Assembly: GCA_029261675.1 (NCBI GenBank)
Contig: JAJDBA010000309.1
Coordinates: 1-35,924, forward strand
Source: Nitrospinaceae bacterium
GTDB lineage: Bacteria; Nitrospinota; Nitrospinia; Nitrospinales; VA-1
Length of the DNA: 35,924 nt
Direction of reading: 5' to 3'
Positions 16,532 to 30,587 of the stretch are shown one piece after another. The notes under the pieces were generated by a model. The model did not search any database. It had not been told where the DNA came from and saw only the letters and a list, made by a program, of their open reading frames with translations. Within the stretch, counting starts at the first letter, position 1. Each line of letters begins with the position of its first letter. Both the position numbers and the translations under genes were made by a program.

Positions 16532-17293
16532 TTAAATGGAAATGGAAAAATAAAAAAGCTCCCAGGTTGCGTAGACTCCCTGTTCGGTGGCAAAGCGTTT
16601 ATCATAATCACGGATTAGTTTTCTTAATCCGCCGGCGTTAAAAATTCTAATTGGCGCGGCTCCAATTTGTTGCAGGTTTTTCATGAGATTCAGGGTGCTT
16701 GGAGAAAATATTTTTCTTTTTTCCACATCAATAGAATTTAGTGTATACCCAGAATTTTTTATAAAATTTTTCCACTGCTTTAGAGAGAAGAGTGTGATTG
16801 GACTGCTTAAATTGGCTGTCTCGCGAAACTCCACTAGAGTTTGAGGGCCAAAAGTACTGAAAAGTATAGTTCCTGTTTTATTTAATGAACTCTTTAAATG
16901 CGCTAAGGTCTCCATCGGATTCAAGAACCATTGAAAAACTGCATTAGCGCAAATCAGATCGGTCTTTTCAAGAGATACTTTTTCAGCATTTCCTACTATG
17001 AATTTAGTATTTGTTGGAATGCTTAAGCGTGATTTTAAAGTTTCAATCATCACAGGTGAAATATCATTTAACGTCAATTCATTGATAGGCATGGTTAGCA
17101 GATGTCTAGTAAAGACTCCTGTTCCGCAACCTAGTTCAAGAATATGGGAAGGGGACTTTTCTGGCAAATAGGAAGCTAATCTTTCTGCCATCGATTTCTG
17201 TAATAGGGCGTAACGATCGTAGGAGTGCGCGTATTTTGAGAAACTCGCAATTATATTTTTTTCTATGCCGGAATTTTTGGGATCCAATGTCAA
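16532..17293 (-). CDS. bioC: malonyl-ACP O-methyltransferase BioC
   Basis: Methylates the free carboxyl of malonyl-ACP with S-adenosylmethionine so that fatty-acid synthesis can build the pimeloyl chain of biotin. The 253-residue protein has the BioC N-terminus FSKYAHSYDRYALLQKSMA, SAM motif I LELGCGTGVFTRHLL (near residue 52), NDISPVMIE, and ANAVFQWF (motif II region). It also has the C-terminal family signature LMKNLQQIGAAP. The start is TTG with no clear ribosome site, and no better start is visible before the conserved N-terminus. It shares the strand with bioF and the BioH-like gene but is separated from them by the DUF429-kinase gene. Confidence 0.88.
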   Translation of the reverse strand: MTLDPKNSGIEKNIIASFSKYAHSYDRYALLQKSMAERLASYLPEKSPSHILELGCGTGVFTRHLLTMPINELTLNDISPVMIETLKSRLSIPTNTKFIVGNAEKVSLEKTDLICANAVFQWFLNPMETLAHLKSSLNKTGTILFSTFGPQTLVEFRETANLSSPITLFSLKQWKNFIKNSGYTLNSIDVEKRKIFSPSTLNLMKNLQQIGAAPIRIFNAGGLRKLIRDYDKRFATEQGVYATWELFYFSISI

Positions 17294-17352: not shown

Positions 17353-19614
17353 CTATCGATCACTTTGCCTACGGCGTAAGGAGGCTTGCGTAACCACCTT
17401 GACGGGCAGGTAAATGGTAAAGGTAGAGCCTTCATTCAGAACACTTTTTACCCGAATATCGCCCCCCATCATCAAGCAGAACCTTCGGCTGATTGCTAAA
17501 CCCAGCCCTGTTCCGCCAAATTTTCTTGTCGAGGAATTATCTACCTGCGAAAACTCCAGAAACAGTTTATTAATAGAATCCGCCGGGATTCCCATACCTG
17601 TATCTATAATAGCAAAGTTTATCCACTCAATATTGTCTCTGATATCACGAAAAACTTTTAAAGTGACTGTTCCCTTTTCAGTAAATTTACAAGCATTGCT
17701 TAATAAGTTGTGAAGCATTTGCCGAACTCTTGTTTCATCTGCATCCATCGTGCCTGCATTTTCAGGACAATCAATGATTAATTTATTTTTACCTTTCTCG
17801 GCAAGGGGGTGAATAGTTCCTTCGACCTCTTTGACTAATTTGTTTATATCAAAGCTCTCAAGCAGAATATCCATTTTCCCTGCTTCGATCTTGGATAGAT
17901 CCAGAATTTCGTTAATGAGGCCCAATAAATGTTTTGCCGATGAACGGATTTTACCCAAATCATCTTGAAAATCATCAAGTCCATCTTCTTCCGCATCCTC
18001 TAATAGCATTTCACTATAACCAATGATCGCATTCATTGGAGTTCTAAGCTCATGACTCATATTTGCCAGAAAATTACTTTTTGCCCGGTTAGCTTCTTCA
18101 GACCTGTCGCGAGCAACTATTAAAGTTTGATGCGCAGACTTCAATTCATTGATTAGGGAAGTGTTACTCACTGCAACCGCAGCTTGTGATGCAAGGGATT
18201 CAACCAGACTTTCATAGTCAGGAGAAAAAGGAATAACTCGTTTTTTATCTTTTACATCTCTGGCATTCAATAACTGTAAAACACCTATGACTTCATCCTC
18301 GTGATTTGTTAGAGGAACAACAAGCATAGACTTCGTGCGATAGCCTGTTTTTTCATCGAATTTTTTCGGACCGGTGAAATCGAAAGGTTCGTAATTGTAG
18401 ACATCCGGAATATTAACCGAAATGTTTTTTATCGCAACATACGCTGAGACATTAGACATGTTTTTTTCCACTGGCGGAAAGGTGATATCTTTTCCAGTGG
18501 TTCCACCCATGAAAATATTCAAGGATTCATTCTGGACAATTTTAAAATTTAAAACGTCATCTTTTAAAATATATAGGGTTCCTCCATCTGCATGAGTGAG
18601 GTTCCTTGCCTCATTTACAATTATTTCAAGCAGAGCCCCCAGATTGCGTTCCCCAGATAAGGCGCGACCAATATTTGATAGTCTTTGAATATGCCCCATT
18701 AGGTTGAAGGATCTTTTCGAGTCCAGTCCACCTTTTTGAATAAACTCGGCCAGTTCACTTCCAAATTTGTTTTTTGGTTTGGCAATACCAATTACCAAAC
18801 TGGGATCAATGATCCAACCTTCAGATTGAATGCTTGGGTGTTGTAAATCAGGGATACCATAATTGGGCTTCCCCATATTGTAGGCCCAAGCTGTTTGGAC
18901 CGCACTCAAAATCGCATCTAGAGAATACCCATTTGCATCCTCAACGCATTTCAATTTCAGAGTGTCATCAATGAATAATTTGAATTCAAAATCATGCTCA
19001 AATTCTGGGGTTTCTAATCCTTTAATGACTTCTTTGTGGACATGCTCTGAATCGGACTTGGTCTTTTTTCCAGAATTTTCTTGTACTTTAAACCGCCTCG
19101 CAACCAAAGCAGGCAGGGTTTCTATAATTACTCGATTATCTTTTTTGGGAGAGCAAGGAATTATAGAAGCTCCGGATTTGAGCAAGCAGTTACTGCCTTC
19201 AAAAAACTGATGAAGAGAATGATTGCCAGTAGCTTTTAAGGGGCTTCCTACCCCCGCAAAAATATCTGTTATTCGCAGGGGTGTTTTCATTCCTTTGGGT
19301 AATTTACTGAGGTATTGTTTTACCTTTTTTTCAAACCCCGTTTGCTTCCATTTTTGGATATCTTTTATGTAATGATTCCACTCTGGGGACAAAGACATTT
19401 TGTCAAGAAACTGCTTTGGTTGCCCTAGTGGAAAATTAACTCCGGCAAACCAAGGACCTTTTTCCTTTAAAAACAATTCGAAATCAGAGAGGGTAGAGAA
19501 AGATTCCACCTTATTTACAGATAGCCCATGGCTCTTTTTGAAGACACAATGCGCAATAGTGATAGGCCTTTTGGGCGTGGGATTATCTGTAAAATTTATT
19601 CCAAATATTTTCAT
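17353..19614 (-). CDS. DUF429 - GAF - histidine kinase fusion
   Basis: 753 residues without membrane helices, so a cytosolic sensor kinase. Residues 1 to about 275 resemble DUF429, a predicted RNase H-fold nuclease family (GVNFPLGQP 58-66, VIIETLPAL 162-170, [15 protein letters not shown] 231-245). Residues about 320-485 form a GAF domain ([20 protein letters not shown]). HisKA follows with the phospho-acceptor His521 in [18 protein letters not shown]. The HATPase domain has N box [10 protein letters not shown]1 DTGMGIP and G2 [10 protein letters not shown]. The two DUF429 positions usually Asp in the opening strands read Asn here (GIN6F, GVN60F), so the domain may be a non-catalytic sensor. 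It is encoded 18 bases after the BioH-like gene and 59 bases before bioC. No response regulator is adjacent. The fold assignment of residues 1-275 is by motif memory. Confidence 0.82.
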
Positions 19615-19632: not shown

Positions 19633-20277
19633 CTAACTTAATATTCTTTTTGCTAACTGTTTCAGTAACGGATTAGGGGAGTGCCCCGCATCTTTTACTA
19701 TCTCTAAATCAGGAATATGGTCTCTCAATACTCCTGCATCAAGAAAAGTATCATTTTCGCCTATAATAGACAAAAAATCATTAGTTTCTTTGCCTGTAAC
19801 CGAGTTATTTTCAAGAAATTTCAACCCCTTTATCAGAATATTTCTACTGGGGATCTCCTTGATCTGGCTTTCTGGATAGGGCAAGTCTGCATGGAAGAAA
19901 AAATCTCGCAGAACATCCGTTTTATTGGAGTCCCGGCTTAATATTTTTATCAAATATTTTAATTGTGTTTCGGAAGTCTTACCACCCAATTGACCTGTAT
20001 TAAGAAAGGCTAGAATCGGAGCAAGTATTGCTTTCTGGGAGTTTGAGGGTAAATGATCTTGATGTTTTAATAGCCATAAACTTCCCAGTGAATAGCCTAT
20101 ATAGAGTTGTGCTGGTAAGCGACTTAATATATTTTGGGCTTCTTCTTCATTTTCTGGGTTTTCCGGATAGACAACACGGACCTCAGAGTTGGGAAAGGCC
20201 TCCTTTATTTGTTCCGCAAACCAGGTTTCGGGAACCGCCCAGCCTGATATCGCTGTGATGGTTAGTTTTTCTTCCAT
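19633..20277 (-). CDS. BioH-like alpha/beta hydrolase (pimeloyl-ACP methyl ester esterase candidate)
   Basis: 214 residues with an alpha/beta-hydrolase catalytic triad: nucleophile Ser63 in GYSLGS, Asp176 in GENDTFLD and His199 in DAGHSP. The oxyanion region SGWAVPETW lies at the N-terminus and has the BioH/BioG-like GW. Position between bioF and bioC makes hydrolysis of pimeloyl-ACP methyl ester the likely job, which would end chain growth before KAPA synthesis. It overlaps the end of bioF by 16 bases. It is shorter than BioH of E. coli (256), closer to BioG/BioK-type esterases, so the exact subtype is left open. Confidence 0.78.
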   Translation of the reverse strand: MEEKLTITAISGWAVPETWFAEQIKEAFPNSEVRVVYPENPENEEEAQNILSRLPAQLYIGYSLGSLWLLKHQDHLPSNSQKAILAPILAFLNTGQLGGKTSETQLKYLIKILSRDSNKTDVLRDFFFHADLPYPESQIKEIPSRNILIKGLKFLENNSVTGKETNDFLSIIGENDTFLDAGVLRDHIPDLEIVKDAGHSPNPLLKQLAKRILS

Positions 20278-21464
20278 GAATCCAATAGTTTTAGCAGTTC
20301 ATCTATCAGCGTTTCATCTATTTTTGAGTGCAGTGAAATCCGCAAACGAGAACTATCAGCAGGAACAGTAGGGGGGCGCACCGCACCAACAAGAATCCCG
20401 TGACTCAATAACTGATTTCTTAATTCAAGAGTTTCCTGCGGGTCGCCAATTACGATAGGAATAATTGGGGACTCAAATTCTACAGGCTTTTGTTTTAAAC
20501 CCTCCTGAAAATATTTTGACAAACTCCTCAATTTCTTCCGTCGTTCACCAAAAGTTCTAATTAATTTTATGGATTCAAGTGCTGCACCCACTTGTGAAGG
20601 AGGCAAAAATGTAGAATAAATATATTCGCCCGCTTGGTTGGTTAAATAATTTATGATGGATGGATTATTTGCTAGAACGTATGCACCCATGCTGGCCAGC
20701 GCCTTACCCAGGGTTCCTATAGTTATATCGACCTCATCCAAAACATTCATTTCTTCTGCCAACCCGCCGCCGTTTTCGCCAAAAACTCCTGTACCGTGAG
20801 CTTCATCAAGTACAAGAATAAAGGGATACTTCTTCTTCATGGCTACAAGTGCTTTCAAGTCGGGATAATCGCCATCCATACTGAAAACGCTTTCGGTTAC
20901 TACAAAAATAGTATCGTAATTTTTGCAATTTTTTTGCAGGAGAGCTTCAAGTTCAATCATATCCAAATGACTGTAGCGTTTGAATTTTGCGGGACACGGC
21001 AAAAGGGCTTGCGCTATGGAATGATGAATGAGTCTATCGGCTAGCACCAAATCATTCTTTCCTGGTAGATGTTTTAAAACAGCCTGATTAGCTACAAACC
21101 CGGAATTGAATAGCATGCCAAAAGATTTCTGCTTCCAATTTAGAATTTCATCGAGCAATTCCTGATGACAGGGTAAAAATCCTGAAAGGAGGGGGGAGGC
21201 GCCGCTTCCAGATCCATATTTTTCACAAGCTGTTTTAGCTCCAGCAATCACCTTTGGGTGAAAGCGCAACTGAAAATAATCGTTAGAAACCAGATTGTGT
21301 TGATAGCCGTTATACAATTTGATTTCTCGATAGAGATGGTTCTCTCTACGAACATTCAGGTCTTGATTCAGGCGGTTGATAAATTTTTTTGTCAATGAAT
21401 TTTGGATATGGTTTGAAAAATTAAAATTATGGTATAAAACGTCTTTCAAGTCAAAGGAACCCAT
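20262..21464 (-). CDS. bioF: 8-amino-7-oxononanoate (KAPA) synthase
   Basis: A PLP enzyme that condenses pimeloyl-ACP/CoA with alanine. The fold-type I motifs are intact: GSGSGASPLLSGF, TESVFSMDGD, DEAHGTGVFG (Asp/His holding PLP), Schiff-base Lys254 in TLGKALAS, and RPPTVPADSSRLRIS near the C-terminus. As an ORF it has 400 residues, about 20 longer at the N-terminus than the family. Homology would begin near TKKFINRLNQDL, which follows a TTG codon at 21395. A good promoter lies inside the first codons of the long form (separate entry), so the true start is probably downstream of the ATG at 21464. It is the first gene of the bio cluster. Confidence 0.92.
   Translation of the reverse strand: MGSFDLKDVLYHNFNFSNHIQNSLTKKFINRLNQDLNVRRENHLYREIKLYNGYQHNLVSNDYFQLRFHPKVIAGAKTACEKYGSGSGASPLLSGFLPCHQELLDEILNWKQKSFGMLFNSGFVANQAVLKHLPGKNDLVLADRLIHHSIAQALLPCPAKFKRYSHLDMIELEALLQKNCKNYDTIFVVTESVFSMDGDYPDLKALVAMKKKYPFILVLDEAHGTGVFGENGGGLAEEMNVLDEVDITIGTLGKALASMGAYVLANNPSIINYLTNQAGEYIYSTFLPPSQVGAALESIKLIRTFGERRKKLRSLSKYFQEGLKQKPVEFESPIIPIVIGDPQETLELRNQLLSHGILVGAVRPPTVPADSSRLRISLHSKIDETLIDELLKLLDSWKKN
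21426..21454 (-). promoter_or_regulatory. candidate promoter of the bio cluster, inside the annotated bioF 5' end
   Basis: The minus strand has TTGACT (21449-21454), a 17-base spacer and CATAAT (21426-21431), each 5/6 to consensus. Transcription would start near 21419, past the ATG at 21464 but before the TTG at 21395. A plus-strand TATAAA (21433-21438) for the divergent gene overlaps it. Confidence 0.55.
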
Positions 21465-21481: not shown

Positions 21482-21871
21482 ATGTCAGAAATTAAAGATA
21501 CCGGTAAAGTTTGGATAAAAGGATCGGTGGGTACCGCACATGCGATTCGAGTCGATGATAAAGTTTTTGCTACAGGGCAAAGGGAAGGTCAAAGCGTAGA
21601 CCTTTGGCTTGATAATGAGGGGTTATGTATTGACCTGCATGATTCCAAGCTCGGTGAAAGAGTGGCTCGTTTCATTCCCCTGAATACTCCGGCTACATTG
21701 CCCGGAACTCTCTTCAATGGATTTGAGAAGACCAAACATGCAGATATACTAATAGTATCTGCTGATAGCGAGGGGATAAAAGAAAAAACGGTTTCGGGCA
21801 AAAAATACCAAGAGGGCGGTTTTAGTGTCTTGGACCGTTTGACTTTTTGGCAAACGATTTGGAAGAACTAA
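21482..21871 (+). CDS. conserved-looking hypothetical protein, 129 aa
   Basis: No family is recognised. The protein is small, soluble and probably all-beta in its first half (GKVWIKGSVGTAHAIRVDD; VATGQ-like turn; SVDLWLDNEG), with a C-terminal segment ending FSVLDRLTFWQTIWKN. It has no signal peptide, membrane helix or cysteine. The ATG at 21482 is only 17 bases from the annotated bioF ATG on the other strand. A TATAAA at 21433-21438 may serve as its -10, with a weak TTTGAA 15 bases upstream. It converges on the DUF1566 gene with 21 bases between stops. Steady codon use and length support a real gene; the function is unknown. Confidence 0.7.
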   Translation: MSEIKDTGKVWIKGSVGTAHAIRVDDKVFATGQREGQSVDLWLDNEGLCIDLHDSKLGERVARFIPLNTPATLPGTLFNGFEKTKHADILIVSADSEGIKEKTVSGKKYQEGGFSVLDRLTFWQTIWKN

Positions 21872-29957: not shown

Positions 29958-30587
29958 ATGTCAAGAATCACTGCAGCTGATATTTTAAAGGTAGTGCCCA
30001 TAACCCGGAAGACACTATGGTTGTGGCAAAAAAAATACCGCTTTTTCCCAGATCCGCAAAAAGAAGGCCATCCTGGCGGCAAAGGTATCGTGGGCTATTA
30101 TCCCGCCTGGGTAGAGGAACGGTGCAAGCAGGTTTATGCCTTACAAAAAAAGGGCTACACCATTGCGATGATCCAGGAGATTTTAGAGAAAGAGAAAAAA
30201 GATAAGTCGACTCGAAAAGTATTGGTGGTCGATGATGAAGTTAAATTTTGCGATCTTCTAAAAAAGATTTTCCAGAAAAACAATTTTCTTGTTGAGACCG
30301 CGTACGATGGATGGGAAGCGGGAAAAAAAGCGGCAGAGTTTCAGCCCACCATTATGATTTTAGATATTACCTTGCCCGGCATCAATGGATTGCAGGTTTG
30401 CAAAAACTTGCGGGCAGATCCTAAAACGGAAAATATAAAAATTATCAGCATATCTGGAGATTTACGTTACTCCGAAGCTGAGGTTCTCGAAGCAGGGGCC
30501 AATTCATTTTTCACCAAGCCTGTTAACTTCGAAATTTTGCTTTCTTTATGTAATGACTTTGTGACCCTCCCAGAATCGCAAACATAA
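29958..30587 (+). CDS. MerR-type HTH fused to a response-regulator receiver domain
   Basis: 209 residues with an unusual order. Residues 1 to about 78 form a MerR-like winged helix (ITAADILKVVPITRKTLWLW, with WVEERCKQVYALQKKGYTIA and MIQEIL). Residues 85-205 form a CheY-like receiver with acidic pocket Asp92/Asp93 (VVDDE), phospho-acceptor Asp136 (MILDITLPGI), Ser165/167 (ISISGD) and Lys187 (FTKPVN). Most response regulators carry the receiver first. No kinase is adjacent; the orphan DUF429-GAF kinase about 10 kb away is the only histidine kinase in the window. It is divergent from the exporter operon, so control of that operon is possible but unproven. Confidence 0.87.
   Translation: MSRITAADILKVVPITRKTLWLWQKKYRFFPDPQKEGHPGGKGIVGYYPAWVEERCKQVYALQKKGYTIAMIQEILEKEKKDKSTRKVLVVDDEVKFCDLLKKIFQKNNFLVETAYDGWEAGKKAAEFQPTIMILDITLPGINGLQVCKNLRADPKTENIKIISISGDLRYSEAEVLEAGANSFFTKPVNFEILLSLCNDFVTLPESQT

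Follow-up and report, generated by a model that had tools for sequence, protein, structure and literature searches.

Gene and Domain Organization

The window, i.e., the whole 35,924-nt stretch of Nitrospinaceae DNA analyzed here, carried at 17353..19614 on the minus strand a single open reading frame of 753 aa, which encoded a soluble DUF429-GAF-HisKA-HATPase sensor kinase conserved as a fusion in relatives. The gene and its frame had been recognized correctly in a sequence-only reading of this DNA, and the strand was corrected to minus. The DUF429 (RNase H/RuvC-like) domain comprised residues 1–274 (18793..19614, minus strand) and was followed by a GAF domain of the cyclic-nucleotide PDE/cyclase type (residues 325–482; 18169..18642, minus strand), which was assigned by Pfam. 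The HisKA/DHp domain (residues 511–579; 17878..18084, minus strand), with the phospho-acceptor H521 in HELRTP, and the HATPase_c domain (residues 626–739; 17398..17739, minus strand), with intact N and G boxes, were assigned by Pfam and motif alignment. In the full-length model (pLDDT 77.5, pTM 0.43), the relative placement of the domains was unreliable; a low-confidence linker was found at residues 275–302, and a single long helix (residues 465–543) ran into the DHp domain.

As had been claimed, the kinase gene lay between a gene for a BioG/BioH-like alpha/beta hydrolase (19633..20277, minus strand), whose stop was 18 nt ahead of the kinase start, and bioC (16532..17293, minus strand; TIGR02072, 178.8 bits against a cut-off of 185). 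The bioF gene was found at 20262..21464 (minus strand), and its relatives suggested that the true start is at about codon 24, near 21395. The hydrolase had no Pfam or NCBIfam match despite its clear GYSLGS nucleophile motif, and it probably represents an undescribed family of pimeloyl-ACP esterases. Divergent from bioF, a protein of ~129 aa with the motifs DxGKxW and LFxGFxxTxH was encoded at 21482–21871 (plus strand); it was conserved across the order and had no Pfam or NCBIfam match. No riboswitch or other RNA family was detected in the window.

Distribution and Loss of the Fusion

The fusion gene (~750 aa) was found in dozens of Nitrospinota genomes. Since numerous independent MAGs, as well as two genomes on a single contig each (G010 and G037), carried it, an assembly artefact or a chance fusion was ruled out. 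The fusion proposed from the sequence alone is thus genuine and recurs as orthologues in this phylum. Among 77 Nitrospinota genomes, DUF429 was confined to the order of the window, which includes the main nitrite oxidisers of the ocean, and was absent from 13/13 genomes outside it. Fragmented copies aside, no genome of the phylum had more than one DUF429 gene, and nearly all intact copies on a sufficiently long contig were kinase fusions, mostly of 750–760 aa. The fusion in L049/L023 had an additional PAS domain (904 aa). A split form occupied the same slot in genome G039, where a 282-aa DUF429 gene was followed after 4 nt by a receiver-HisKA-HATPase gene; this locus had no bioC, and the best bioC match elsewhere in the genome was weak. 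A contig labelled Thaumarchaeota (L037) also carried the Nitrospina-type locus from bioF to TPR, and is most likely mislabelled or mis-binned. No DUF429-kinase fusion was seen among DUF429 loci outside Nitrospinota in one non-exhaustive scan of a genome collection with one motif. In an acidobacterial MAG (L071:4620-7843), 14 nt separated the end of a hybrid histidine kinase gene from a stand-alone DUF429 gene that followed it in the same orientation.

The kinase occupied the same slot across four families. Ten relatives (L113, L114, L117, L118, L119, L121, L123, L125, L126, and L128) had no kinase, and bioG was directly followed by bioC. Broken remnants at differing stages of decay were found in the sister genus: 91 aa in L115 (9044-9319), 61 aa in L120 (8656-8841), and a copy in L122 (4451-6711) in which DUF429 was broken after residue 214 and the kinase frame was still open. 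The kinase therefore appears, from these gene contents, to have been lost several times, also within genera.

Assignment and Fold of the DUF429 Domain

The claim that residues 1–275 form a DUF429 domain failed in a direct profile search, as residues 1–274 of the window protein gave no Pfam match even at E ≤ 5, but it was upheld through the orthologues. When 24 orthologous N-terminal domains (37–80% identical to the window domain) were aligned, 17 of them matched PF04250 (best E 8.6e-13). The DUF429 sequences of L124 and L071 scored over the PF04250 cut-off, and stand-alone DUF429 proteins from Chloroflexota, Cyanobacteriota, Methanoperedens, and others aligned with the whole domain end to end. 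Because the orthologues matched the Pfam model and the stand-alone proteins aligned over their full length, the assignment holds by homology, and the window sequence has drifted beyond the reach of the model.

The structure prediction that the sequence-only reading had called for gave a confident fold for residues 1–279 (pLDDT 93, pTM 0.92), with strands at 2–7, 18–26, and 30–39, a helix at 42–49, a strand at 55–59, a helical insertion, a strand at 161–165, and a helix at 230–247. The order of these elements fits an RNase H-like/RuvC-type fold. The best Foldseek matches in the PDB were the resolvases Ydc2 and RuvC, which were weak (E 0.06–0.14) and not significant alone; those among viral models (BFVD) were terminase nucleases, RNase H, and a resolvase, also weak (E 0.005 or poorer). 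A PDB sequence search with the domain and its profile returned nothing meaningful. Weak as they are, the structural matches are consistent with the literature, in which DUF429 is assigned to clade D of the RNase H superfamily, a group related to RuvC (PMC3985635).

The DUF429 family (PF04250; COG2410/COG4328/COG4923) is predicted to be RNase H-like, and the fusions resemble it in full-length alignment, in the order of strands and helices and, where the aspartates are kept (Asp-type fusions), in the near-invariant motifs. Known members are single-domain proteins or are fused to Nudix, RelA/SpoT, or phosphomethylpyrimidine kinase domains (PMC3985635, PMC3153485), whereas the partner here is a GAF histidine kinase. 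Two further architectures, beyond those in the cited papers, were observed: a fusion to an AbiU2 HEPN domain (L096:4186-5664), and a fusion to DUF433, by Pfam in L056:6950-8086 and by similar C-termini in L059 and L070:7001-8107. In Methanoperedens (L064:5634-11166), a stand-alone DUF429 gene lay between hsdS (4-nt overlap) and hsdR; a gene for a YhcG-type nuclease was close by, and the setting resembles that of a defence locus. For the Nitrospinota fusions, an anti-phage system was rejected: PADLOC gave a chance-level match for the fusion (E 0.003) and a weak PDC-S44 match for relatives, and PHROGs gave none.

The Predicted Active Site

The residues of the domain were compared among 41 stand-alone or split proteins, 15 Asp-type fusions, and 12 sequences of the window clade. 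The near-invariant acids of DUF429 (D7, D60, E165, D230, and D233) were all kept in the Asp-type fusions. In the window protein, position 7 is Asn (codon 19594..19596, minus strand), a site with Asp in 15/15 Asp-type fusions and 40/41 stand-alone or split proteins; position 60 is also Asn (19435..19437, minus strand), with Asp in all sequences of both sets. Position 230, at the start of the last core helix, is Tyr (18925..18927, minus strand), with Asp in 40/41 and 15/15, respectively. E165 (19120..19122, minus strand) was invariant everywhere, the window clade included, and D233 (18916..18918, minus strand) was kept in the window genus and replaced by Asn or Thr in the sister genus. Two Asp-to-Asn changes had been noted before; N60 was correct and the "N6" of that reading is N7. 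The persistence of E165 and D233 had also been seen correctly, but D230, equally near-invariant, is replaced by Tyr in the window.

Within the window clade, position 7 was Asn in all 11 sequences that covered it (the twelfth was truncated there), position 60 was Asn in 10/12 and Asp in 2/12, position 230 was never Asp, and position 233 was Asn or Thr in 9/12. A sequencing error behind the Asn residues was ruled out, as they were common to a clade of 12 sequences. According to the model, D7 corresponds to the end of strand 1, D60 to the end of strand 4, and D230 and D233 to the start of the last helix. These four positions correspond in order and spacing to the RuvC quartet. The RuvC-type catalytic acids of strand 1, strand 4, and the last helix are thus present in the Asp-type fusions and lost from the window protein (N7, N60, Y230, with D233 remaining). 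T9, S10, P132, M136, Y167, Y177, K178, and R193 changed along with the acids in the window clade, which retained G5, F8, P12, W55, G58, P62, W79, R114, D117, E165, P168, W243, G253, and the EGWI motif; R114, D117, E165, and W267 were kept in all fusions.

This pattern points to a loss of catalysis in the window-clade domain, which, unlike known DUF429 members, has few of the predicted catalytic acids left. As E165 and D233 remain, the domain of the window protein may still bind metal. The Asp-type fusions, by comparison, may be enzymatically active. One possible, though doubtful, explanation is that DUF429 is catalytically active in the Asp-type fusions, with the attached GAF-kinase responding in cis to its reaction or product, and that the window clade no longer carries out this reaction and has retained the kinase output alone. 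It would be consistent with the full conservation of the site in the 15 Asp-type fusions, with the published fusions to Nudix and RelA domains, and with the position between hsdS and hsdR in one archaeon. However, no activity of DUF429 has been demonstrated in the literature found, and the window-clade domain was still under constraint after the loss of the site, so that a second function would be needed.

Evolution of the DUF429 Domain in the Fusion

In the domain tree, the fused DUF429 sequences formed one supported set (27 rows, 100/98), which included the split form of G039. The window clade, comprising two genera, was a single branch (100/100) nested among the Asp-type fusions, and thus the fusion preceded the loss of the site. 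The phylogeny suggested that the fusion of DUF429 predates the divergence of the known Nitrospinota fusions and took place when the predicted metal-binding or catalytic acids were intact, and that the site was lost later, in the window clade only, in one episode on one long branch.

The stem of the window clade was 0.60 for DUF429, 0.285 for GAF-HK, and 0.165 for BioF. Inside the clade, BioF changed more than DUF429 or GAF-HK, and the DUF429/BioF ratio of pairwise divergence, calculated from simple protein distances and not at the codon level, was 0.86–1.04, versus 1.03–1.56 in other pairs. Because the long stem was followed by a DUF429 that evolved no faster than BioF, a change of function is preferred over decay; in these distances, a burst and then constraint fits the former better. 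There is now good support for the proposal that a nuclease-type fold had turned into an input module without catalysis, and this proposal can be refined: the fusion came first, with an intact site, and the loss occurred later in one clade.

The GAF Domain, the Kinase Core, and Response Regulators

The residues that define a HisKA kinase (H521, N636/N640, D671-G673-G675, and GGTGLGL) were invariant in 17 orthologues, and the kinase motifs are therefore intact. The core resembled soluble HisKA kinases of the TorS/BarA/LuxQ type, a likeness drawn from NCBIfam matches far under their cut-offs, in the complete motif set of its DHp and CA domains and in its long signaling helix. In contrast to those kinases, it matched no membrane or periplasmic sensor region, had no receiver domain, and carried a unique N-terminal DUF429. 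The HExxT motif suggests, by the general motif rule, that the kinase also has phosphatase activity.

The GAF domain was the most conserved part of the protein (93–96% identity between close relatives with BioF at 69–76%). Its closest PDB entries by sequence were the cyclic-nucleotide GAFs of CyaB2 (1ykd), PDE5, and PDE2, with which it shared the tGYRT motif region. Compared with CyaB2 and PDE5, its NKFDE signature was degenerate by eye (LNAR...FSPDYE), with Asn, Phe, and Glu kept and Lys and Asp replaced; binding of a cyclic nucleotide is thus not implied. The nearest GAF paralogues in the two single-contig genomes were the GAF/HD-GYP proteins L162 and L163 (58–59% identical, 16–19 kb off), which had no DUF429 and whose predicted output domain is a c-di-GMP phosphodiesterase. 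Their closeness is a hint that they may share a ligand with the kinase.

The statement that no response regulator is adjacent was confirmed: the operon contained none, and the nearest one found in the window lay ~10 kb off, on the opposite strand. This was an orphan regulator (29958–30587, plus strand) that begins with a MerR-type HTH and ends in a receiver domain, and it was 85–95% identical across close genera. It was rejected as a regulator tied to the kinase, since it does not follow the kinase and was also kept in kinase-less genomes of the order. It is a possible but unproven partner.

The Biotin Operon Setting

All of the compared Nitrospinota fusion loci (22/22) adjoined biotin genes (bioG-like and/or bioC), so the location near bio genes suspected from the window alone is conserved. 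Wherever the contig was long enough, the gene order was bioF, bioG-like, kinase, and bioC, with an extra methyltransferase before bioC at two loci. The spacing of 18 nt between the bioG-like gene and the kinase in the window corresponded to a 4-nt overlap in many relatives, and no terminator-like site was predicted between the operon genes on the coding strand. The bioF-bioG-kinase-bioC genes are presumably co-transcribed.

A regulatory link between the kinase and biotin is plausible but unproven. In its full form, the kinase would regulate biotin synthesis: it would respond to the demand for biotin, or to a related metabolite, and adjust the bio genes via an unlinked regulator, in place of BirA-type control. 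The tight embedding in the operon at all 22 loci would speak for this, as would the biotin protein ligase found in this genome, which consisted of the ligase domains only and had no HTH repressor domain, and the conservation of the orphan MerR-HTH/receiver protein ~10 kb off. However, bioF-bioG-bioC persists without the kinase in ten or more relatives, the orphan receiver protein is also present in kinase-less genomes, and bioB lies outside the block. In addition, the flanking non-biotin genes (LolD/MacB, PabB, aminotransferase IV, TlpA-like, TPR, and DnaJ) were equally syntenic over the whole 20-kb block, and therefore location alone is weak evidence of function. As the biotin genes survive where the kinase is deleted or decaying, the kinase is not needed for the pathway and, by gene content, is dispensable for the operon. 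We consider control of biotin synthesis unlikely.

The repeated losses and broken copies (L115, L120, and L122) and the conservation of the neighborhood as a whole could also be explained if the protein is an ordinary, loss-prone GAF sensor kinase with no special relation to biotin, in which DUF429 is a dimerisation or structural cap. The retention of the same slot across four families, the very high conservation of the GAF domain, and a window-clade DUF429 constrained as strongly as BioF are evidence against it, and we regard it as somewhat improbable.

Proposed Role

The explanation that we favor, and think probable although far from certain, is a cytosolic GAF sensor kinase in which the RNase H-fold DUF429 module has become, in the window clade, a non-catalytic regulatory domain. 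Because the predicted cutting residues were mostly lost and the shape was kept, the domain of this lineage is probably a switch or docking part rather than an enzyme. The HisKA-type kinase would be produced with the biotin operon, and its GAF domain would be the probable main ligand sensor. The window-clade DUF429 would bind a ligand, nucleic acid, or partner, and the resulting conformational change would pass via the flexible linker (~275–302) and helices to the GAF domain and the long helix (465–543), and then to the DHp/CA core, upon which the kinase would phosphorylate an unlinked response regulator. The sequences themselves establish the fusion, its orthology and synteny, the loss of the site, and the intact kinase motifs; the loss of catalysis, the sensing role, co-transcription, and any effect of the kinase on biotin are inferred.

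A more far-reaching version, which we offer as speculation with a small chance of being right, is a two-component class with a RuvC-like nuclease input. The Asp-type members would sense or process nucleic acid or a nucleotide and report via the GAF domain and the kinase, and the window clade would be a pseudonuclease receptor, its signal coupled to the supply of biotin and fatty-acid precursors in nitrite oxidisers.

DUF429 is widespread and functionally uncharacterised in the literature found, and no literature was found on DUF429 kinases or on biotin signaling in Nitrospina. The loci form a natural series of stand-alone, split (L124), fused with an intact site, fused with a lost site, and decaying forms, which makes the function of DUF429 testable. 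If the Asp-type fusions are still active, as they may be, the family would become a directly testable nuclease-sensor series. The favored role would be a type of sensor input so far unreported, in nitrite oxidisers that are abundant in the sea, and might, to our knowledge, be the first case of a two-component system linked to a biotin operon.
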